From assembly GCF_018618415.1 (NCBI RefSeq), contig NZ_JACSMA010000001.1:1116001-1180000 (forward strand): a stretch of 64,000 bases of DNA. Direction: 5' to 3'. This document shows, piece after piece, positions 31,023 through 63,667 of this stretch (its first letter is position 1; every line of letters starts with the position of its first letter). The notes under the pieces are model-generated. The model searched no databases. It was not told the DNA's origin and worked only from the letters and a program-made list of their open reading frames with translations. The stretch is from Exiguobacterium sp. s146 (GTDB lineage: Bacteria; Bacillota; Bacilli; Exiguobacteriales; Exiguobacteriaceae). The position numbers were made by a program, and so were the translations under genes.

Positions 31023-31095
31023 TGGAGCATAGCGGGCTCGAACCGCTGACCTCCACGCTGCCAGCGTGGCGCTCTCCCAGCTGAGCTAATGCCCC
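31023..31095 (-). tRNA. tRNA-Ala (GGC anticodon)
   Basis: A 73-nt cloverleaf on the minus strand: acceptor GGGGCAT/ATGCTCC, D-arm TAGCTCAGCTGGGAGAG, anticodon stem-loop CACGCTGGCAGCGTG with anticodon GGC (reads GCC), and T-arm GGTTCGAGCC. CCA is not encoded. It has its own promoter and terminator. Confidence 0.96.
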
Positions 31096-31136: not shown

Positions 31137-31229
31137 TGGGTATTTTTAAATTTTTTTGAACAAAGTTTAATCCGGCCTAAACGTGGGAAAATCATGAGTA
31201 ATATTATTCTACGAAAGCAGGTGTCATCC

Positions 31230-32093
31230 ATGGAAATGATTTTACTCGCACTCTTACCTGCCTTGATGTGGGGGAGTATCCCGCTCATCGTTTCAAAAGT
31301 CGGCGGCAAGCCGATTCAACAGTTGATTGGGACGACGATCGGGGCGATGGTGATGGCGGTCATCATCGCACTCGTCTTCAGTCCGGAGTTCACGACGCTC
31401 GCGCTCGTGACCGGTTTCATCTCCGGTGTGTTCTGGGCACTCGGACAATATTTACAGTTCCAATCGTTCCAAATTTTAAGTGTATCGAAAGCGATGCCGA
31501 TCAGCACCGGGATGCAGCTCGTCGGGACGTCCTTGTTCGGCGTCATCGTGCTCGGTGATTGGCAGACGTCGACCGAACTGTGGCTCGGGTTCTCCGCGCT
31601 CGTGTTGATTATCATCGGGGCGGCGCTGACGTCGTATCAACAGAAGAAAGACGGCGACAGCAGCGGCGCCTTGAAGAAAGGCTTGCTCGTCCTGCTCGTG
31701 TCGAGCATCGGGTACGTGACGTACGCCGTCTTGACGAACTATTTCGAGGTCGACGGCATCACGGCCATCTTGCCGCAATCGGTCGGGATGTTCATCGCAG
31801 CACTGTTGTTCAGCCTGCGAGAGAAAGACGTCAAAAAGTTCGATCCGAAGACGTTCAAAAACATCTTGGCCGGTCTGGCCTGGGGAATCGGGAACTTCGG
31901 TCTGTTCGTCTCGAGCGGTGAGGTCGGCATCGCCACCTCGTTCGCCTTATCCCAATTGAACGTCGTCGTGGCGACGCTCGGTGGGATCTATCTATTGAAA
32001 GAAGAGAAGACGACGAAAGAACGTGTCTTCGTCTTCATGGGAATCGGGCTCATCGTCGTGGCCGGGTTCATGCTCGGGATTGCGAAGAGCTAA
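31230..32093 (+). CDS. glcU: glucose uptake protein GlcU (GRP transporter family)
   Basis: A 287-aa ten-helix membrane protein of the glucose/ribose porter family, the same length as Bacillus GlcU. Conserved regions are LPALMWGSIPLIVSKVGG, SGVFWALGQYLQFQSF, GMQLVGTSLFGV and LAGLAWGIGNFGLF. It imports glucose by proton symport independent of the PTS. No gdh gene lies next to it. ATG 31230 is chosen over 31194 because homology begins there. Confidence 0.92.
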   Translation: MEMILLALLPALMWGSIPLIVSKVGGKPIQQLIGTTIGAMVMAVIIALVFSPEFTTLALVTGFISGVFWALGQYLQFQSFQILSVSKAMPISTGMQLVGTSLFGVIVLGDWQTSTELWLGFSALVLIIIGAALTSYQQKKDGDSSGALKKGLLVLLVSSIGYVTYAVLTNYFEVDGITAILPQSVGMFIAALLFSLREKDVKKFDPKTFKNILAGLAWGIGNFGLFVSSGEVGIATSFALSQLNVVVATLGGIYLLKEEKTTKERVFVFMGIGLIVVAGFMLGIAKS

Positions 32094-32103
32094 ATGAATT
32101 TTA

Positions 32104-32143
32104 TAAAGAAGGACCAGGTTGATTGATGCGACTTGGTTCTTTT
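32104..32143 (+). terminator. terminator after glcU
   Basis: Twelve-pair stem AGGACCAGGTTG / CGACTTGGTTCT (with G-T pairs), loop ATTGATG, then seven T. It marks the last host-like sequence before the AT-rich insert. Confidence 0.88.
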
Positions 32144-32762
32144 TTTAGTTAAAGAGAAATGAATTCATGTATCTACAATAAATAAAAAAATTAGGAATGT
32201 TAGTGAGTGGGATTTGAATAAATATATTATAAATTATGCAAAAGAATTTTTTAAGAAGATGAAACAGTTTTGTTGTTTCAGATAGCATATTGAGTTTGGT
32301 GTTATGGTTGATTAATTTAGCGAGCGCGACCTCTTCAATGACGTATAATCAAACCGCCAGCTTTCGAGTGGCTTAATTCTCGTTGGAGATGGCCAGCTTT
32401 CGAGTGGCTTAATTCTCGTTGGAGATGGAATGAAAGCTCTCATTAAAAAGTTATTTAAAAGGGCGAATTGAATCAGGCAGCGATTTCAGAACTAATGATT
32501 GCCAGTATAAATCATCCTAAAAATAAGTACAATTCATAGAATTGTAATGAGTTAAATTTAGAATAATATGATTTTTTTAATGATATGAGTTTCTAATTAA
32601 AGGGTATTGATTCACCACTTTGATATGGCAAGATTTTTGATTTTTAGTGCAACAAGTCAAATTTCGCATTTTTTATAGGGGCTAGTATAACAAATCCTTT
32701 ATTGCGATAGGTTTGCTATTTTAGAACTAGATTGTCATAATAAAAATTATAGGAGGGATAAA
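32144..32762 (+). other. AT-rich non-coding leader of the defence pair
   Basis: About 620 bp without a credible gene and far richer in A+T than the flanks. It contains the exact 36-bp tandem repeat described separately, a TATAAT at 32345-32350 just before it, and the AGGAGGG ribosome-binding site of the ATPase gene at its 3' end. No protein remnant was recognised in any frame. Confidence 0.6.
32357..32428. repeat. two exact tandem copies of a 36-bp unit
   Basis: Copies at 32357-32392 and 32393-32428 are identical and directly abutting. Each unit begins CCAGCTTTCGAGTGG and ends CGTTGGAGATGG. Within a unit CCA...TGG and CGAG...CTCG can pair to a small hairpin. There is no spacer between copies and no further copy was seen nearby. 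Confidence 0.9.
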
Positions 32763-34118
32763 ATGCTATCACGACTTTTTATAGAGAATTTTTTATCTTT
32801 TAAAGGAAAACACGAAATTAGCTTTAATCATGGTTCAAGTAATGCAAGAATATTTAAAAATAATATTTTATTTGAGTACGAAGAATTTGGAAAGAAGAGA
32901 GTCATACTCAACGGGCTGCTTGTTTTGGGAGCCAATGCATCTGGGAAGTCTAATATTGTAAATGCGATGTCTTCTATGAAATCAATATATTTAAACAGTT
33001 TTGATTATAATACTCTAAGCGATATTAATTCTACAGTTAAAGAATTCATGTTCAAAGAGCGTAGCGAAGAATCAATTCCTACAACACTTGGTACTGAAAC
33101 GATTCAATCCGTAAATAATGATAATTACAAAATAAATTATGAAATAAGCATCGATTCTAGAACGCAGAAAATTATTTACGAAACTCTTTCGTACTCTAAA
33201 ATTCTTAAAACTACCGTAGCTTCTTCTACCAACATTTTTGTTAGAAAAAACGGAAAAATAAATCATTTCTCTTCAAATATCAAACAAATTATAAAAAAAA
33301 TTGAGCAAGATAATATTGAGTATAAATCTTTATTATCGTTATTGAACTTTGATTTAAATAAAGATTTCTTTAAAGAAGAAATGGAGAGTATTGAATATGA
33401 CATAGTACAACAGTTTGGATTATTTTTATCAGATAATTTCTTCACTGTTGACTCTACTCCTAGACATGACGTTTTTCCTGAAAAGTTATTAGAAAATCCA
33501 GACTTCAAAGAATACATATTAGAAAGCTTACATGATTTCGATTTTTCAATTTCTGATTTCTCAATCCAAGACATGTCGCTAGATTTATCAGAAGCTCTTG
33601 AAAATAACAAGTTAATGAATGACTTGCCTGATTTCTTAAGAAAGCAAGTTATAAATGATTTGAAGAGACAAAATCAATATATTGTACATGCAATTCATGA
33701 AATAGATAACGTTGAGTATCCCCTTGGTTTGGGATCAGAATCAAATGGGACAAGAAAATTTCTTAAAAATTCATTTGATATCTATGAAGCTCTATTTTCT
33801 GAAAAAATATATGTAGCAGATGAATTTGATAGTAAATATCATTTTAATATTCAGAAGGGAATTATAAATAAGTTTATAAATAACTATTATGATAATGGTA
33901 AAAAATCTCAGTTTTTAATAGTTTCACATAATCCATTATTGCTTAATCAACAATATTTTGCAAAAGAACAAGTTTTATTTGTTGAAAAAGAAAGAGATAC
34001 TCAAGAGTCTATTACTTATCCTTTAAGTGATTTTAAAGAGATTACTTATAATAATCACAACTGGGCGAATATGTATTTAGAAGGACGTTTAGGCGCTATT
34101 CCCGAGGTGATAATTTAA
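32763..34118 (+). CDS. AAA15/ABC-type ATPase, RloA/AbiLi/AriA-like defence protein
   Basis: A 451-aa ABC-related ATPase of the AAA15/AAA21 group. It starts with the SMC-like RLFIENFLSFKGKHEISF. Walker A is GANASGKS (56-63), a degenerate signature lies around GSESNGTRKFL (324-334), the Walker B is KIYVADEFD (348-356) and the switch His is in VSHNPLLL (387-394). The middle is a poorly conserved helical insert. Such ATPases are sensors in two-gene abortive-infection systems. It overlaps the next gene by one base (TAATG). The gene is very AT-rich, unlike its surroundings, so it was acquired. Confidence 0.85.
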   Translation: MLSRLFIENFLSFKGKHEISFNHGSSNARIFKNNILFEYEEFGKKRVILNGLLVLGANASGKSNIVNAMSSMKSIYLNSFDYNTLSDINSTVKEFMFKERSEESIPTTLGTETIQSVNNDNYKINYEISIDSRTQKIIYETLSYSKILKTTVASSTNIFVRKNGKINHFSSNIKQIIKKIEQDNIEYKSLLSLLNFDLNKDFFKEEMESIEYDIVQQFGLFLSDNFFTVDSTPRHDVFPEKLLENPDFKEYILESLHDFDFSISDFSIQDMSLDLSEALENNKLMNDLPDFLRKQVINDLKRQNQYIVHAIHEIDNVEYPLGLGSESNGTRKFLKNSFDIYEALFSEKIYVADEFDSKYHFNIQKGIINKFINNYYDNGKKSQFLIVSHNPLLLNQQYFAKEQVLFVEKERDTQESITYPLSDFKEITYNNHNWANMYLEGRLGAIPEVII

Positions 34119-34768
34119 TGAGAGATAAAGCACCTAAATCTACCGTTCATGTTTATTTTCCTGAAGCTTCTTGTAAAGGAACAAAAATAAATCTCTCGGA
34201 AGACTTTTATTTAAAACATTCATTTCAACGTAACGCCAAAAAAGTTTTAAAAACTTATGGCTTCGAACACCAAAAAGATTTTTTAAAAAAATATAAAAAA
34301 AATGAACATAATGATCAATTTTTTATAGTGTGCGATACAGACATATCTCCTTCCCGTAATAATATTGATATTGTGAAGAGAGACTTAAACTCTTATCAGG
34401 CAAAATATCCTAGAGCTAAATTGATTCTCTCAGCTCGAAGTTTTGAAACATGGCTATGTATGTATAATAATAAGATATATACTAAACCTTTCACTACACA
34501 AGGTGTATTAACTGATGATATGCAAATGAATGGATACGAAAAAAAAGAAGATTGGTTCAAAAAAAATGCTAAATATCTTTACGATAATTATGAGGACGCG
34601 ATATCTACAAGTAAACGAAGTAAGAAGAATGTTTTTGAATCGCATGGACTAACAACATTAAATTTGAATGATCATCCAGGAACATTAAATAGTAATATAA
34701 TTCATCAACTTGTAACATTGACCCCGTTTACCTATTTCGATATTTTAATTGGTGAATTGATGAATTGA
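34118..34768 (+). CDS. RloB/AbiLii-like protein with TOPRIM-type motif
   Basis: A 216-aa protein paired with the AAA ATPase. The fold cues of RloB are present: an N-terminal Glu16 in VYFPEASCKG, where family members have a CEG-x-TE motif; Asp73-x-Asp75 in FFIVCDTDIS; and FETWLCMY (109-116), matching the family FE-x-WLL-x-H. Glu plus DxD is the TOPRIM metal site, so it is probably the nuclease effector. The N-terminal motif deviates from the usual CEGxxTE. Function in phage defence is inferred from known AbiL, RloAB and PARIS pairs. Confidence 0.75.
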   Translation: MRDKAPKSTVHVYFPEASCKGTKINLSEDFYLKHSFQRNAKKVLKTYGFEHQKDFLKKYKKNEHNDQFFIVCDTDISPSRNNIDIVKRDLNSYQAKYPRAKLILSARSFETWLCMYNNKIYTKPFTTQGVLTDDMQMNGYEKKEDWFKKNAKYLYDNYEDAISTSKRSKKNVFESHGLTTLNLNDHPGTLNSNIIHQLVTLTPFTYFDILIGELMN

Positions 34769-34799
34769 ATTCTATAAAATTGTTACTACTGGAATAGTT

Positions 34800-34855: not shown

Positions 34856-35383
34856 TTAGACCTTTTCCGCCCACGCTACATCTATAAATTCATCACGCCC
34901 TGAAATAGCGCGATCTTCCTTATAGTGTTTTGGATTCTTCTTATGGAAATCTTGATGGTACTCCTCGGCCGGATAGAACACATCAGCCGGCAAGATTTTC
35001 GTGACGATTGGCTGTTTGAAGCGTCCGCTCGCCGCGAGCTCGTCCCGGCTCTTCTCGGCCGCGATGCGCTGCTCCTCAGTATGATAGAAGATGGCCGGCG
35101 CATATTGGCTGCCTCGGTCTTGGAACTGGCCGCCGTCGTCGGTCGGGTCGGTCTGAATCCAATACAGTTCGAGCAGTCGCTCATATGCGAACAGCGTCGG
35201 ATCGAACGTGATCTCGACGACCTCGTAGTGTCCCGTCGTCCCTGTCTTCACTTGTTCATACGTCGGGTCGTCGACGTGACCTCCCGTATAACCCGATACG
35301 ATCGATTCGATGCCGGGTTGTTCCTCGAACGGCGTCACCATGCACCAAAAACACCCACCTGCGAATGTTGCTTTCTCCATCAT
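34856..35383 (-). CDS. msrA: peptide-methionine (S)-S-oxide reductase MsrA
   Basis: A 175-aa MsrA with the catalytic GGCFWC (Cys11) near the N-terminus, [32 protein letters not shown] and [14 protein letters not shown]. It repairs oxidised methionine in proteins using thioredoxin. The first of two adjacent ATG codons, five bases past AAGGGGGA, is used. The longer frame to 35533 is an artefact, since that DNA is the SAM riboswitch. Confidence 0.94.
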
Positions 35384-57168: not shown

Positions 57169-57194
57169 AAAACCGCTCCCTAGAGCGGTTTTTT
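57169..57194. terminator. terminator overlapping the integrase end
   Basis: Stem AAAACCGCTC / GAGCGGTTTT with loop CCTA; the integrase stop codon lies within it. T-rich on both sides. Confidence 0.87.
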
Positions 57195-58043
57195 TACGTC
57201 CTCGATCATGGTGGAGAAGAGCTCGGCCGTATCTCCCTGAGTAGTGTGCAATACGTGAGCGTAGATATCCATCGTCGTCTTGGCATCGGCATGCCCCAGA
57301 CGTTCTTGGATGACCTTCGCATGGACACCGGCCTTGATGAGCAGCGTCGCATGGGTATGTCGTAACTCACGCATCGTGATCTCAGGAATCTCGGCCGTTT
57401 TGACGGTCAGGGTATGGCGTCGTCGCAATCCGGAATACCAGACATAGGCGCCCTTGATGCCGAGGCAGACAAGGTCCTCGTCGTTGCGCCATCCGAACTT
57501 GACCATGTCATACTTCTGACGAAGCCGCGACTTCTCGAGGAAGCGGATCAACTGGTCGGGGATGGTGACGACCCGCACCTTTTTCCCTTTGGTCTGCTCG
57601 AACGAATAGCCGCCCTTCGTCTCGATGGCGGTACGGGCAATCGTGATCTGTTTCCGGTCGAAGTCGATGTCGGACCAACGGAGGGACGTCGCCTCGCGGG
57701 CACGCATGCCGGTATAGGCGATCAGGTGGACCGCTGTACGATAACCATTCGCCATCGTCTCATCCGCCGTCTCGAGGTAACGTCTCAGCTCATCAGGCGT
57801 GAGCGTCTTGTATTCTTTCAAGCCCTCCGACAGTTTCTCGACGGCAGCTATCGGGTTGTCACCTTTATAATAGCCCAGACGGCGCGCCCAGGAGAAGAAG
57901 CCGACATAGACGCTCCGGCGAATGTTGACGGTGTTCGGCTGTAAGCCAGAGTCGAGGTATTCACGGAGTAAACGTAGGCAGTGCTGCGGTTTCACGTTGT
58001 CCATGTTCAGGCGCTTGAACCAACCCGGCACGACGTCTCGATT
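57180..58043 (-). pseudogene. tyrosine recombinase/integrase, 5' end replaced by an IS30 remnant
   Basis: About 288 codons of a phage/ICE-type integrase. The core-binding helices (LRLLREYLDSGLQPNTVNIRRSVY) and the whole catalytic domain remain: Arg in AYTGMRAREATSL, His-x-x-Arg in RELRHTHATLL, GHADAKTT and nucleophile Tyr in MDIYAHV. The frame runs back to 58154, but there it is only the antisense of transposase DNA, so the arm-binding N-terminus is lost. Probably inactive. Confidence 0.8.
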
Positions 58044-58276
58044 TACTTTGCGGATCCCGGCACGCCTTCTCAGCGCGCCTTGAATGAAAATTCCAACGGG
58101 CTCCTGCGGAAAGACGGCTTGGCAAAGGAAATGGACTTCAACCAGGTGGATCAAACATTCATTTCGTCGGTGGCCGACAAGCGGAATAACATCCCAAGAA
58201 AGTCATTGAATTACCGCACACCGTTGGAGGCATTTTTGAGTCACCTGAATGGAGTCGATCTGTCTAGCTTAAATTG
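58038..58276 (+). mobile_element. IS30-family transposase 3' fragment
   Basis: Encodes the C-terminal part of an IS30 transposase: IYFADPGTPSQRALNENSNGLLRK (with the catalytic Glu in NENSNG) and NNIPRKSLNYRTPLEAFLSHL. The 5' two-thirds of the gene and one terminal repeat are absent. The junction with integrase sequence is near 58038-58043. Confidence 0.8.
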
Positions 58277-58292
58277 ACAAACGGAAGAATAT

Positions 58293-58332
58293 AAAAAGAC
58301 ATTCTCTTAAAAAATGGAGAATGTCTTTTTTA
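58293..58332. terminator. bidirectional hairpin after the pseudogene
   Basis: Stem AAAAAGACATTCTC / GAGAATGTCTTTTT with a 10-base loop. On the minus strand it follows the excalibur pseudogene. Confidence 0.8.
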
Positions 58333-58364
58333 CAATCATCATTGTTTTAATTTTTGGGTTGAAA

Positions 58365-58970
58365 TCATTCCCCGACCATCCCGTCATTGTCGTTATCACG
58401 CATATAAGGATAAAGCCAATGGTCGCTCATTATCGGCATCGTGAAACCGGCGTCTTTCGCCTATTGAATCGTCACCTGACCGTCTCCATTCGTATCTCAT
58501 CACCAGCAGGCTCGTTCGTGGCTGGGGATTCTAACTCACTTTCTGTGAGTGCCTCGTTCAACTCGTCCGGATTGACCTTGTCGAACGAGTCGGTAACCAC
58601 ATTTCTTTTGACCGTATATGTGTATTGGTAATGTGATGTAATATAAGTTTTCGTATCTAGATATGTGATGATCATTTTAAAGTCAATCGCGCCGCCGTCC
58701 TTACGGATAACATGTCACCTGTCGAGCTTACTGTATTCGACGCCTGAAACCTTAACGACCGTCTGACGTGACACGGATCAATTTACAATGCTCATTCGTG
58801 GACGCACAATACTCGCAATCCCCATATTTGATATCGACAGGTCCTTCTGTAATAGTCGCCGCACTTGATTCCGTGGTGCCCGGCTCGGACGTCTTGATGT
58901 TTTTCCTCTGTCGTAAGTATTTTTTCTGTGTTCTCTACTGTAGAGGAACTGCTCTATTGGGAACATCAGG
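58365..58970 (-). pseudogene. decayed excalibur calcium-binding-type lipoprotein gene
   Basis: On the minus strand coding-like segments recur in changing frames: ESSAATITEGPVDIKYGD, CEYCASTNEHCKLIRVTSDGR, VKVSGVEYSKLD, HVIRKDGGAIDFKM, ITYLDTKTYITSHYQYTY, NPDELNEALTESELESP, NGDGQVTIQ then a TAG where a Glu codon is expected, and AKDAGFTMPIMSDHWLYPY with MRDNDNDGMVGE at the end. The last part is an excalibur domain (Asp-rich Ca site). At least three frameshifts and one stop codon break the gene. The 5' end is not definable. Confidence 0.75.
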
Positions 58971-58975
58971 AAAAT

Positions 58976-59200
58976 AAAGGTATAGCTTGAGGTGCGGCTG
59001 AGTAAGTGAAATTCATTTCCTTTCTCTTTGAATGAATAGTTTCAGTATTACCAATTCTTTTATTTATCTGACTGTGAATCCAAGTTGTTTGAGACTCGTG
59101 TATATCCAATTTCATCATTAAGGACCTCTGTTCGTTTGCTTACTCATCAAATATAAAAAACGAACATTGATAAAAAGATGAGTTAATGGACAATTAAGAC
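58976..59200. other. AT-rich intergenic stretch
   Basis: No gene or RNA was recognised. Codons are not coherent in any frame. It separates the decayed region from the cadmium genes. Confidence 0.5.
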
Positions 59201-59240
59201 AAAATGAAAAGGACTATTTAAAGCCCTTTTCATTTTTTGT
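59201..59240. terminator. hairpin upstream of the cad operon
   Basis: Stem AAAATGAAAAGG / CCTTTTCATTTT with an 11-base loop. It could end transcription arriving from the left. Confidence 0.75.
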
Positions 59241-59336
59241 GAAAAGATAAACAAATATGTCTTTCTAACGTTCGTTAACGGGAATTACTATTAGAAAAAT
59301 CATTTTATGTTTTTCATTCAAATATTCACTTGAATA

Positions 59337-59364
59337 TTGACCAAGGAAAGGTATATACTATATT
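59337..59364 (+). promoter_or_regulatory. promoter of cadCA
   Basis: TTGACC (59337-59342), 16-bp spacer, TATATT (59359-59364). The -10 merges into the CadC operator. Confidence 0.8.
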
Positions 59365-59381
59365 CAAGTGAACACTTGAAT
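59362..59381 (+). promoter_or_regulatory. CadC operator
   Basis: Twenty-base palindrome ATTCAAGTGAACACTTGAAT overlapping the -10 and start site, as in the cad operons of Gram-positive plasmids. A degenerate copy lies at about 59318-59337. Confidence 0.87.
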
Positions 59382-59398
59382 ATCAATGGGGTGATAAT

Positions 59399-59767
59399 GT
59401 GAATAAGAAAGATACTTGTGAAATTTTTTGTTATGACGAGGAAAAGGTCAATCGAATACAAGGTGATTTAAAAACAATCGATATTGTTAGTGTTGCCCAA
59501 ATGTTAAAAGCAATTGCGGATGAAAATAGGGCAAAGATTACCTATGCTTTGTGTCAAGATGAAGAGTTATGTGTGTGTGATATAGCAAATATTATTGGTA
59601 TTACGGTGGCAAATGCTTCTCATCATTTAAGGACCCTTCATAAGCAGGGGATTGTAAGATATAGAAAAGAAGGAAAACTAGCGTTTTATTCGTTAGACGA
59701 TGAACATATTAGACAAATAATGATGATTGTACTAGAACATAAGAAAGAAGTGAATGTCAATGTCTGA
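59399..59767 (+). CDS. cadC: cadmium/lead-responsive ArsR-family repressor CadC
   Basis: A 122-aa metal sensor. Cys7, Cys11, Cys58 and Cys60 match the CadC metal site numbering, in CEIFC and LCVC. The winged helix ([22 protein letters not shown]) binds the upstream palindrome until Cd2+, Pb2+ or Zn2+ releases it. It begins with GTG. It overlaps cadA by 8 bp and the low-GC codon use differs from the core genes. Confidence 0.94.
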
Positions 59768-61931
59768 TCAAAAGGCAATAACATCTGAACAAGAAATGAA
59801 GGCCTATCGTGTACAAGGTTTTACTTGCGCAAACTGCGCGGGTAAATTCGAAAAAAATGTAAAACAGCTATCTGGAGTTGAGGATGCAAAAGTAAATTTT
59901 GGTGCATCTAAAATTGCTGTTTATGGTAATGCAACGATAGAAGAACTAGAAAAAGCAGGTGCATTTGAGAATCTCAAAGTGACACCTGAAAAATCTGCTC
60001 GCCAAGCATCACAAGAGGTAAAAGAAGATACGAAAGAAGATAAAGTGCCGTTTTATAAAAAGCATAGTACTCTACTTTATGCTTCCTTATTGATTGCCTT
60101 TGGTTATCTTTCCTCGTATGTGAATGGAGAAGAGAACATTGTTACTACCTTATTGTTTTTAGCATCCATGTTTATCGGAGGATTATCACTTTTTAAAGTT
60201 GGTTTGCAAAACTTACTACGTTTTGAATTTGATATGAAAACCCTTATGACAGTGGCTGTTATAGGTGGTGCTATTATTGGAGAATGGGCAGAAGTTGCCA
60301 TTGTTGTTATTCTCTTTGCAATCAGTGAAGCACTTGAGCGATTCTCTATGGATAGAGCAAGACAATCGATTCGTTCATTAATGGATATCGCTCCTAAAGA
60401 GGCACTTGTTAGACGTAATGGACAAGAAATAATGATTCATGTTGATGATATTGCTGTTGGGGATATCATGATTGTAAAACCTGGTCAAAAGATTGCGATG
60501 GATGGTGTAGTTGTAAGTGGGTACTCTGCCGTTAACCAAGCAGCTATTACAGGTGAATCAGTCCCTGTCGAGAAAACGGTTGATAATGAAGTATTTGCAG
60601 GTACCTTAAATGAAGAAGGATTACTTGAAGTAGAAATAACGAAACTTGTAGAAGATACAACAATTTCTAAAATTATTCATCTTGTAGAGGAAGCACAAGG
60701 GGAACGTGCTCCTTCGCAAGCATTTGTTGATAAATTCGCAAAATATTACACACCGATTATTATGATCATTGCAGCATTAGTTGCTATAGTCCCTCCATTA
60801 TTCTTTGATGGCAGTTGGGAAACATGGATTTATCAAGGATTAGCTGTTCTTGTTGTTGGTTGTCCTTGTGCGTTGGTTATATCGACTCCTATTTCTATTG
60901 TTTCAGCGATTGGAAATGCTGCGAAAAAAGGGGTCCTTGTAAAAGGCGGAGTGTATTTAGAAGAAATGGGCGCCTTAAAGGCTATTGCATTCGATAAAAC
61001 AGGAACATTAACAAAAGGGGTCCCAGCTGTAACTGATTATAATGTGTTGAACAAACAGATAAATGAAAAAGAATTACTATCCATTATTACTGCATTGGAG
61101 TATCGTTCTCAGCATCCTCTTGCTTCAGCCATCATGAAAAAAGCAGAAGAAGAAAACATTACTTATTCTGACGTACAGGTAGAGGATTTCTCTTCTATCA
61201 CAGGAAAGGGTATAAAGGGTATCGTAAACGGGACGACTTATTACATCGGTAGCCCGAAACTCTTTAAGGAATTATTGACTAATGATTTCGATAAAGACTT
61301 AGAGCAAAATGTTACTACTCTTCAAAATCAAGGTAAGACAGCCATGATTATTGGAACCGAAAAAGAAATACTTGCAGTTATTGCAGTTGCTGATGAAGTT
61401 CGTGAGTCAAGTAAGGAAATTCTTCAAAAGTTACATCAACTTGGAATCAAAAAAACAATTATGCTTACTGGTGATAACAAAGGCACTGCGAATGCTATCG
61501 GAGGGCAGGTTGGAGTATCTGATATAGAGGCAGAATTAATGCCACAGGACAAATTAGACTTTATTAAACAGTTGAGATCCGAGTATGGCAACGTAGCAAT
61601 GGTAGGAGATGGGGTCAATGATGCCCCTGCGTTAGCAGCTTCTACCGTTGGGATTGCAATGGGTGGAGCTGGTACAGACACAGCCTTAGAAACTGCAGAC
61701 GTCGCTCTAATGGGAGACGATTTAAGAAAACTTCCATTCACTGTAAAACTTAGCCGGAAAACTCTTAATATCATCAAAGCTAACATTACTTTTGCAATTG
61801 CTATTAAATTTATTGCCTTACTATTGGTTATCCCAGGTTGGTTAACGCTTTGGATTGCCATTCTTTCCGATATGGGCGCAACCCTTCTAGTAGCTCTAAA
61901 TGGTTTGCGACTAATGAGAGTGAAAGAATAA
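59760..61931 (+). CDS. cadA: cadmium-translocating P-type ATPase CadA
   Basis: A P1B-2 ATPase of about 723 aa. The N-terminal metal domain has FTCANCAGK; then come the membrane metal-site CPC (VVGCPCALV), phosphorylation DKTGT, TGES, TGDN and the hinge [10 protein letters not shown]. It exports Cd2+, Zn2+ or Pb2+ using ATP. Sequence is very close in plan to plasmid pI258 CadA. ATG 59760 is used (59754 also possible). It follows cadC in one operon. Confidence 0.95.
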
Positions 61932-61937
61932 AGGAAA

Positions 61938-61987
61938 AAGTGCTAAAAAGGGCTCTTCCAGACAGATGGAAATTCCTTTTTTAAAAA
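61938..61987 (+). terminator. possible terminator after cadA
   Basis: Imperfect hairpin AAAAAGGG...TCCA/TGGA...CCTTTTTT. It separates cadA from cadD, with a short AT-rich gap that could hold a cadD promoter. Confidence 0.5.
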
Positions 61988-62047
61988 GGACTCATTATGA
62001 GTATAACTTCTAAATATAATAAAAAATCAGTTAGTGAGTTGATGTAA

Positions 62048-62716
62048 TTGACTTTAATTTTGAACGTTATTTCTGCAATAGGGGCATTTATAGTTACCAA
62101 TATTGATGATATTTTTGTTTTGATGCTGCTATTTTCACAGGCAAAAGCACAGGTGAAAACGAGTGAAGGTTTAAAAGGTAACCAGACAGAGAATAAGCAT
62201 ATAACCCCTAAGGATATAATTATTGGACAATATCTAGGTTTTACCTTGTTAGTAGTAGTTAGTCTCTTAGGAACTTTTGGAGTTATGTTAATTCCAGAGA
62301 AATGGGTAGGATTACTTGGACTAATCCCAATCTATTTAGGGATTATGTTGTTTATAAAGGGAGAAGATGAGGATGAAAATGCAATTCTTTCAAGTTTAAA
62401 TTCTGGAAAGTATAATAATGTCTTTTTAAGTGTAGCATTTATAACATTTGCTAATGGCGGAGATAACATTGGAATATATGTTCCTTTCTTCTCTACTTTA
62501 ACCATGAACCAACTAGCAGTAACGGTTATTACTTTCTTTATTATGGTTGCGATTTGGTGTTTTATTGGATATCGTTTGGCAGCTTTTAAACATGTCTCTG
62601 AAACCTTAGAGAATTACGGTAGATGGATTATACCCATTGTCTTTATTGGTTTAGGAATCTATATCATAGTGGAGAACGAAACTTTCAGTGCCCTTTTGAG
62701 TTTAATAAATTATTAA
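62048..62716 (+). CDS. cadD: CadD-type cadmium resistance transporter
   Basis: A 222-aa membrane protein of the CadD family (LysE superfamily), with about six helices and the signatures FIVTNIDDIFVLMLLF, GQYLGFTLLVVVSLLG and FANGGDNIGIYVPFF. It starts with TTG. It gives cadmium resistance by an ATP-independent route, a second and different pump next to CadA. It may be transcribed separately. Confidence 0.87.
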   Translation: MTLILNVISAIGAFIVTNIDDIFVLMLLFSQAKAQVKTSEGLKGNQTENKHITPKDIIIGQYLGFTLLVVVSLLGTFGVMLIPEKWVGLLGLIPIYLGIMLFIKGEDEDENAILSSLNSGKYNNVFLSVAFITFANGGDNIGIYVPFFSTLTMNQLAVTVITFFIMVAIWCFIGYRLAAFKHVSETLENYGRWIIPIVFIGLGIYIIVENETFSALLSLINY

Positions 62717-62770
62717 AAAATAATCTGAACCGCCCCCCGTCAAGTAGACAGTGGAAATAATAAAAGTGAT

Positions 62771-63667
62771 TTAAGCGGCTTTCGCTCTATATTCTTTAGG
62801 GCTGAGGCCGTTTAATCGTTTTTGGTATCTTTCGTGATTATAAAAATAGATGTACTCATTTATGGCAATGTTAAGTTCTTCAAAGGTCTGATACTTATGT
62901 AAATAATACTTTTCACATTTTAACGTGCCGAAAAAAGATTCCATTGGTCCATTATCAATACAGCGACCAACCCGTGACATACTTTGAGTCATTCCTGCCG
63001 CCTCTAATTTACGCTTGAACGCCTTAGAGGTGTATTGGAATCCACGATCACTATGAATCAGTGGGTGTTCTTGATGCAATCGTACGATTGCCTGGTCAAG
63101 CGTTTTAAATACCAGTTGATTATTATTAGAGTGTCCCAGCACATAGCTAATAATGGATCCGTCATAAAGATCACGAATCACACTGAGATAGGCCTTCTTA
63201 GATAGGCCATATTTAAATTCTGTCACATCCGTTACCCATTTCTCATTCGGCTTTTTAACTGTGAATTCACGGTTTAATACGTTCTCTGCCACATGTTGTG
63301 GTGACGACTTTTTGTGCCGTTTTCGCTTCTGGCGGATGACCGAACGGATCTCATGGATACGCATGAGACGATAGATGCGCTTCTCATTGTATGCCGGCAG
63401 GTCATGCTGGCGTCGTCTGCGATTGACCGTCATGGTGATCCGTCGATAACCGTAGGTCCCGTTCACCTGGTCGTAAAGGAGGCGGATGTCTTCCAATAGG
63501 CTCAAGTTCTCTTCTTCGCGTACCGAGACGGTACGCTTCAACCATTTATAGTAGGCGGCCCGTGAGACCTGCGCGATCTCGCACAGGAGCACGACCGGGA
63601 ACGTGTCGGTCGTCGACATTTCCTCGATGACCATGTATCGCAATTGTAGCCTGATCTGGCTGATCAA
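62771..63667 (-). CDS. IS3-family transposase OrfB
   Basis: About 298 aa with the DDE core: Asp in KWVTDVTEFKY, Asp in PLIHSDRGFQYTSK and Glu in PMESFFGTLK, and the C-terminal YNHERYQKRLNGLSPKEYR. The N-terminal part is reached from orfA by -1 frameshifting at an A6G run (63691-63697 on the plus strand as CTTTTTT), giving KKVGGNREERLISQIRLQ. The intact frame suggests recent activity. Confidence 0.92.
   Translation of the reverse strand: MISQIRLQLRYMVIEEMSTTDTFPVVLLCEIAQVSRAAYYKWLKRTVSVREEENLSLLEDIRLLYDQVNGTYGYRRITMTVNRRRRQHDLPAYNEKRIYRLMRIHEIRSVIRQKRKRHKKSSPQHVAENVLNREFTVKKPNEKWVTDVTEFKYGLSKKAYLSVIRDLYDGSIISYVLGHSNNNQLVFKTLDQAIVRLHQEHPLIHSDRGFQYTSKAFKRKLEAAGMTQSMSRVGRCIDNGPMESFFGTLKCEKYYLHKYQTFEELNIAINEYIYFYNHERYQKRLNGLSPKEYRAKAA

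Follow-up and report, generated by a model that had tools for sequence, protein, structure and literature searches.

AbiL, which pairs an ATPase (AbiLi) with an RloB-family partner (AbiLii), was first described in Lactococcus lactis in 1999 (reference lists of PMC10440598 and PMC3985639). According to the passages cited here, AbiLii of Fusobacterium is toxic to E. coli and the Fusobacterium AbiLi failed to neutralise it (PMC3985639), a Clostridium RloB-type TOPRIM toxin with an AAA partner passed a neutralisation assay (PMC10440598) and, in PARIS, AriB is kept in check by a hexamer of AriA until a phage protein is sensed, upon which AriB dimerises and cuts tRNA (PMC12409363). A review of OLD nucleases lists systems that encode the ATPase and the TOPRIM domain in two different genes as awaiting understanding (PMC10568477, in the part cited), and in the cited literature passages no RloB protein is given a molecular target. 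Here we describe a two-gene locus lying in a low-G+C insert between glcU and msrA on a 1.27-Mb contig of Exiguobacterium sp. s146; the whole stretch of DNA analysed, 64,000 nucleotides (nt) long, is referred to as the window. Judged by its profile matches, the pair is AbiL, not PARIS or Septu, and together with a single relative on plasmid pB of Exiguobacterium sp. PFWT01 it makes up, on sequence grounds, a deep and so far tiny AbiL branch in Exiguobacterium with a changed predicted catalytic loop. With moderate confidence, we read it as a divergent AbiL abortive-infection system, namely a TOPRIM nuclease held by its ATPase, triggered by phage and originating from a plasmid slot. The genes and their expression signals, the ribosome-binding sites (RBS) being assigned by reading the sequence, are:

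32763..34118, plus strand: abiLi-like gene for an AAA_21/ABC-type ATPase, 451 amino acids (aa), open reading frame (ORF) intact
34118..34768, plus strand: abiLii/RloB-like gene, predicted TOPRIM-type effector, 216 aa, ORF intact
32751..32757, plus strand: RBS of the ATPase gene, AGGAGGG
34104..34111, plus strand: likely RBS of the partner gene, GAGGTGAT, within the end of the ATPase gene
32713..32741, plus strand: possible, weak promoter, TTGCTA-17-CATAAT with an extended -10 (the promoter call is weak since the region holds 19 promoter-like sites against 16.0, standard deviation 3.9, in shuffles)

The two ORFs overlap by one base (TAATG), so that an RloB/AbiLii-family gene follows directly downstream in the operon. 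The window ATPase has the complete AbiL set of features, with a Walker A motif GANASGKS at residues 56-63, an SNGT signature (S327-T330), a Walker B motif ending in ADE (D353, E354) and a switch histidine, His389; Walker A, S-x-G-T, D353-E354 and H389 fall in columns that are invariant or nearly so across the 29 ATPases aligned. The partner carries E16, D73-x-D75 and FETWL at 109-113 (F109-E110-T-W112). An initial annotation of this DNA, made from the sequence alone, had pointed out Walker A, Walker B and the switch histidine of the ATPase, the Glu16, Asp73-x-Asp75 and FETWL residues of the partner and the one-base overlap, and all of these were located as described there.

The profile search that the same annotation had suggested, against the AAA15/AAA21 and RloB/DUF4435 families, placed the ATPase in the AAA_21 family of Pfam with 47.7 bits (cut-off 27) and the partner in RloB with 39.5 bits (cut-off 31.5), both above their cut-offs, which means that neither ORF is due to chance; DUF4435 was not listed. 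In PADLOC the ATPase matched AbiLi with an E value of 2.2e-55 and the AriA model of PARIS with 2e-14, while the partner matched AbiLii weakly (E 1.3e-5). The filing under AbiL is based on the AbiLi match, the RloB match above cut-off and the match of the partner to AbiLii. Indeed, of the candidates put forward earlier (AbiL, RloAB and PARIS) AbiL stood, and PARIS fell for want of an AriB/DUF4435 model among the matches. The AbiLii model scored the window partner at 24 bits, its pB relative at 27 and three canonical partners at 75-116. At E up to 0.01, NCBIfam lists no family for the ATPase or the partner. Searches of PDB sequences gave no match with the ATPase profile and, with the partner profile, six weak rows (E 0.05-0.8; Ycf54, ferritins) that we take as unrelated.

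The partner was said from the outset to lack the exact CEGxxTE motif, and the alignment explains how. In 35 of 38 other RloB proteins the first strand is followed by xEG and, shortly after, by T, S or A and then E, an arrangement that is usual without being defining. The window and pB partners have no xEG; instead they share PEA(S/D)C(K/R)G(T/E)K(I/V)(N/T)LSE, with a longer loop ahead of SE. The remaining three of the 38 have CGA or CGG at the first strand. These proteins (L116:3956-4600, L122:1307-1912 and L016:824-1441, with sequences such as CGAEKTEP and CGGEETEP) likewise lack the first-strand Glu, which shows the loop to vary in other parts of the family as well. The altered loop can be read in two ways. 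Either the TOPRIM Glu is E16, followed by a loop that has grown, which the structure models favour, or, as a possible alternative, CKG corresponds to CEG and the Glu has been lost. In the model of a canonical RloB, E29 comes directly after strand 23-28; in the window model, which is of moderate quality, E16 lies two residues past strand 8-14 and K20 six past. E16, unlike K20, is thus close behind the first strand, which supports its assignment as the TOPRIM Glu. With strands taken from the models, the acidic set of a TOPRIM partner (Glu after the first strand, DxD after the third) is present in both members, and E16, D73, D75 and E110 are kept in both. The model of the window partner (predicted local distance difference test score, pLDDT, 70.3) is too weak to show the fold alone. 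A TOPRIM protein was not among the best 50 structural matches listed for it, a result that we do not count against the assignment; the confident model of a canonical RloB had the TOPRIM region of an OLD nuclease as its first structural match.

When the partner was searched by tblastn against 72,556 plasmid records, a single relative was found, on plasmid pB (NZ_CP073757.1), with 55.5% identity; the ATPase encoded beside it is 62.1% identical to that of the window. No relative of the partner was found in 50,697 phage records, and it matched only its own genome both among 200 near relatives (1/200) and, as a two-member profile, among 398 genomes of the phylum (1/398). Genome contigs searched with each protein, and viral contigs searched with the two-member alignments, yielded no further close relatives. 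The pair is absent from all 18 other Exiguobacterium genomes searched (0/18) and is therefore not part of the core genes of the genus, as vertical inheritance there would have implied. The ATPase has a wider circle of kin: distant AbiLi relatives occur in 17 of 398 genomes of the class, its own included, and it matches 121 plasmid records, 120 of them below 60% identity, and four phage records. An alignment of canonical RloB proteins retrieved 33 loci in viral contigs (L104-L106 being near-copies), with a Walker A motif about 1.1-1.2 kb upstream of RloB in 32 of them, the ORF of the 33rd starting at a contig end; the ATPase and RloB genes therefore move together on many elements.

Maximum-likelihood trees were built from 45 ATPases and 40 RloB proteins; in both, window and pB group as a single clade (supports 100/100 and 100/99, respectively). 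This clade sits on a stem of 2.49 (ATPase) and 2.83 (RloB) changes per column, longer than any other branch of the respective tree, against median end branches of 0.49 and 0.72. These stems and the altered loop bear out the earlier suggestion of a divergent member, perhaps a new subtype, with a caveat of AT bias for the ATPase tree that is taken up below. Of the 33 viral RloB rows, 30 entered alignment A5 (which omits L105 and L106, both near-copies, as well as the truncated L120), 24 alignment A6 and 28 the tree; of the viral ATPase rows 31 were extracted, with 28 in alignment A7 and all 31 in the tree. Nine partners and 11 ATPases came from the class-search loci.

Between window and pB, agreement at codon positions 1/2/3 is 0.72/0.82/0.50 for the ATPase and 0.64/0.76/0.50 for the partner, and 22 of 64 and 14 of 31 four-fold sites agree, respectively. 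Protein sequence has been retained while silent sites are near saturation, from which we infer that both genes remained functional for the greater part of the time since the window and pB copies split.

The insert and its surroundings comprise:

31194-32093: glcU (Pfam Sugar_transport 349.8 bits; NCBIfam RhaT/GlcU 295 bits, below the cut-off of 320)
32106..32144, plus strand: hairpin with a T run 3' of glcU, left insert edge (-18.7 kcal/mol, z -6.3)
32356..32427, plus strand: perfect tandem duplication of 36 nt (2 x 36), just 5' of the next feature
32447..32593, plus strand: remnant of an XRE-type helix-turn-helix (HTH) regulator gene, with three in-frame stops in 49 codons
34800..34837, no strand assigned: hairpin on the msrA side, right insert edge (-23.3 kcal/mol, z -6.5)
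stop at 34856: msrA (NCBIfam MsrA 196.5 bits, cut-off 108)

The sharp fall in G+C between glcU and msrA that drew attention to the locus is borne out by the numbers, 32151-34790 having a G+C content of 28.5% (0.285) against 52.6% (0.526) for the remaining window, and none of 281 stretches of the same length elsewhere in the window being as low (lowest 0.357). Neither edge hairpin was reported by the consensus terminator scan, which admits loops of up to 8. A tRNA-Ala (GGC) gene (31023-31095, minus strand) lies just upstream of glcU, about 1 kb off the insert edge.

Genome neighbourhoods were compared across the genus, including genomes without the insert, as had been proposed. All 19 genomes have glcU; in seven the site is empty, msrA following directly with one short shared terminator-like stretch between, and the other sites are filled differently. 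In these other genomes the glcU-msrA interval (loci L070-L080) is longer, the gap being about 1.1-2.0 kb in four genomes, 2.8 kb in the window and 4.2-8.7 kb in three; in four genomes msrA lies beyond the fetched stretch, and the content of filled sites was identified in part of the genomes. The glcU 3' sequence that includes the left-edge hairpin is common to the window and four genomes with a likewise filled site. In two of the genomes whose msrA lies beyond that stretch (G014 and G017), DNA of a plasmid header, described below, starts about 200-290 bases past glcU, at nearly the same plasmid position. In G014 a GmrSD-type gene stands behind it; the header of G017 breaks off early, and the ORF that follows resembles, by eye, part of an IS3-type transposase (HTH_21 25.3 bits, under cut-off). 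A third genome (G010) has a YobI-type ATPase in the interval (PADLOC Tmn model, E 4e-92). By its sequence, the window insert fits the pattern of plasmid-header arrivals, most of its header being lost if ever present, and the pair probably reached the variable glcU-msrA site through horizontal transfer out of a slot on an Exiguobacterium plasmid, located behind a small regulator beside the conjugation genes.

The plasmid header consists of a divergent 162-aa XRE gene and a small HTH regulator (L002:1366-1925; loci L081-L093 and L129-L134). Its DNA matched 14 of the 19 genus genomes at 16 places, 13 of them on contigs of 19-126 kb and three on contigs of 0.8-2.1 Mb, two of these three matches having lengths of 75 and 209 bases. 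The header is further present in seven named Exiguobacterium plasmids, all typed mobilizable, two of which (111,141 and 68,746 bases) are probably identical with two of the 13 contigs. Each of the six plasmids read beside pB is typed MOBP, and in each the header leads a VirD4-like gene, joined in five cases by a pLS20_p028-type conjugation gene. The position recalls the divergent Rco switch of pLS20 (PMC4207663, in the passage cited) and, by analogy with it, suggests that the slot may be tied to the control of conjugation.

Similarity among header DNAs ends at the 3' end of the small regulator; downstream the loci differ, save L083 and L085, which start alike. Defence-type domains lie within about 6 kb of the header at seven of 14 plasmid-type loci (the 13 contigs and pB): AbiL on pB, an Eco57I-type methylase with a GHKL-type ATPase, DUF6791/ThiF, GmrSD_N, an AAA_5 (McrB-like) protein, TOTE conflict proteins and, as a weak case, an AAA/NACHT-like protein (AAA_22 just over its cut-off of 27 at 27.2 bits, NACHT under its own, no PADLOC match). 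L085, ended by its contig with its cargo unscanned, is counted among the seven loci without recognised defence domains. As for other cargo, no family was found at L083, L084, L087 and L093 (in three for the first cargo gene, in one for a later gene), L081 carries a subtilase, and L090 a Tn3 transposase, with a macrolide phosphotransferase annotated adjacent to it on pCXA, probably the same plasmid. Because defence-like cargo is found at only about half of the loci, the slot is not reserved for defence. On its far side lie parA/parB in pB, L081 and L087 and a tyrosine recombinase in L082, L084, L088, L089 and L093 and, partially, in L091; the other five loci have neither in the stretch at hand. 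In pB the pair stands just ahead of parA, parB and primase genes, and plasmid pE52 has an annotated RelE/ParE-type toxin-antitoxin pair close to the slot.

The broken HTH gene and the tandem duplication, unmentioned in the initial annotation, lie within the roughly 610 bases upstream of the window pair. The pB pair is preceded by an intact small HTH gene of the Cro/C1 (XRE) type (Pfam HTH_26 33.8 bits, cut-off 22), which belongs to the same family as the window remnant. DNA of the remnant matched at 72-76% across some 90-140 bases (E 1e-17 to 1e-6), and a tblastn match to it has an E value of 2e-13 within a 612-base stretch; the link that these sequences suggest between the window upstream region and the plasmid header is modest. 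The 36-nt duplication was not found upstream of the pB pair. An RNA element at this repeat (type III toxin-antitoxin or retron-like) was considered and rejected: Rfam gave no match with E values up to 1, viral contigs held no exact copy of a 31-base pattern, the repeat has only two copies, is absent upstream of the pB pair and adjoins a decayed regulator.

The way in which the pair would work, from the oligomer, the sensing and the nuclease target to growth arrest and protection, is drawn by analogy; a holder and sensor ATPase, a TOPRIM nuclease effector and an RNA target are what the AbiL, Clostridium and PARIS relatives suggest. An oligomer of the AbiLi ATPase would hold the RloB-type TOPRIM nuclease inactive and act as the sensor of a phage product or activity. 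Upon infection the ATPase would change its state, and the nuclease, with E16, D73, D75 and E110 placed around metal ions, would be freed or switched on and cut a nucleic acid essential to the cell, with RNA such as tRNA as the likeliest target, so that growth would stop before phage release. Three observations weigh against this account of a plasmid-derived, deeply divergent AbiL system. AbiLii of L. lactis was non-toxic in the same work in which the Fusobacterium protein was toxic (PMC3985639, passage cited), which slightly lowered our confidence; a DNA search with the pB header failed to pick up the window relic at E values up to 0.001; and window and pB deviate in letter composition from the ATPase alignment (chi-square p < 0.001), so that AT bias may lengthen their stem in that tree, the two not being flagged in the RloB tree.

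The pair might instead serve mainly as a plasmid-maintenance toxin-antitoxin, the partner being the toxin, the ATPase the antitoxin and phage protection a side effect, as the place of the pB relative ahead of parA, parB and primase genes, the toxin-antitoxin behaviour of the Clostridium pair (PMC10440598, passage cited) and the RelE/ParE-type pair near the same slot would suggest. Yet a large ATPase with a complete hydrolysis site exceeds the needs of neutralisation, about half of the slot cargo is defence-like, and the Fusobacterium pair showed no neutralisation (PMC3985639, passage cited); we regard this explanation as unlikely but not negligible. That the chromosomal copy is a decaying passenger, no longer working, appears improbable to us: the regulator gene ahead of it is broken and the upstream region, without further plasmid similarity, carries the tandem duplication, but both large genes are intact with RBSs and catalytic residues in place, and two long AT-rich ORFs that stayed open while the small regulator decayed suggest that selection keeps them.

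Quite improbable, in our judgement, is a partner that is no nuclease, its changed loop having lost the metal site in favour of another mode of action. Such a loss would agree with the Lys/Arg that falls on the canonical Glu if C-x-G is aligned and with the three other RloB proteins of 38 that have no Glu there; against it, E16 lies nearly where canonical E29 does behind the first strand and is kept in both members, as are D73, D75 and E110. A PARIS-like (AriA/AriB) system in place of AbiL would account for the AriA match of the ATPase, and its mechanism may well be alike, but with AbiLi matching far better and the partner assigned to RloB and AbiLii we give it hardly any credence.

Beyond the preferred reading of a divergent AbiL system, we tentatively propose, as a view more doubtful than probable, that window and pB represent a separate AbiL subtype whose rebuilt metal-binding loop alters the target of the nuclease or the hold of the ATPase on it, and which spreads through a cargo slot behind an XRE regulator. 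To this proposal belongs, at the same tentative level, that E16 has moved upstream, that Lys/Arg occupies the usual Glu position and that the loop ahead of SE is longer. If it is true, whole defence systems are swapped behind a small XRE regulator that faces the conjugation genes of MOBP plasmids, and defence could switch together with conjugation. The literature search, with subscription papers largely outside its coverage, found nothing on an AbiL subtype with a PEA-type loop or on the Exiguobacterium plasmid slot. The pair is a deeply divergent AbiL variant with a changed loop and is of specialist interest, the kind of system being already known. Although AbiL has been known since 1999, the PDB sequence searches gave no relative of either window protein; the altered-loop branch offers a natural test of the residues that make an RloB protein toxic, and the plasmid slot beside conjugation genes would be a place to seek further defence genes in Exiguobacterium. 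Elsewhere in the window a second AT-rich block was observed (57180-63667, with a G+C content of about 0.34-0.40 from 58 kb on), in which Pfam identified a phage-type integrase followed by an ArsR-family regulator, a heavy-metal P-type ATPase, a Cad-family transporter and an IS3-type transposase; by this content it looks like a cadmium-resistance island.

Compared with known systems, the window pair differs from OLD class 2 nucleases (e.g., 6nk8), where both domains lie in a single chain, and Septu (PtuAB) was discarded, since the partner is an RloB protein for which no HNH model was listed in Pfam or PADLOC at E up to 10. RloAB as part of a type I restriction-modification operon was set aside as well, the neighbours being glcU (sugar transport) and msrA; the pB pair has an hsdR gene about 5.5 kb away, outside the operon. 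With PARIS the pair has in common an ABC-type ATPase and a separate TOPRIM effector, and the logic is likely similar (PMC12409363, passage cited), but its partner belongs to RloB and not to the AriB family, no AriB/DUF4435 model being listed for it over the same two databases and range. It resembles AbiL, compared here through profiles with the L. lactis sequences themselves outside the comparison, in gene order, in an ATPase of the AbiLi profile, in the RloB/AbiLii partner and in having a plasmid-borne nearest relative, and departs from it in the strong divergence of both proteins, the rebuilt first-strand loop and the low AbiLii score. Closest of all is the pB pair (KD909_RS15315/RS15320), with 62% and 55.5% identity, the same loop and an HTH gene of the same family upstream; it is, however, plasmid-borne with an intact regulator, whereas the window pair sits behind a broken one on a 1.27-Mb contig.
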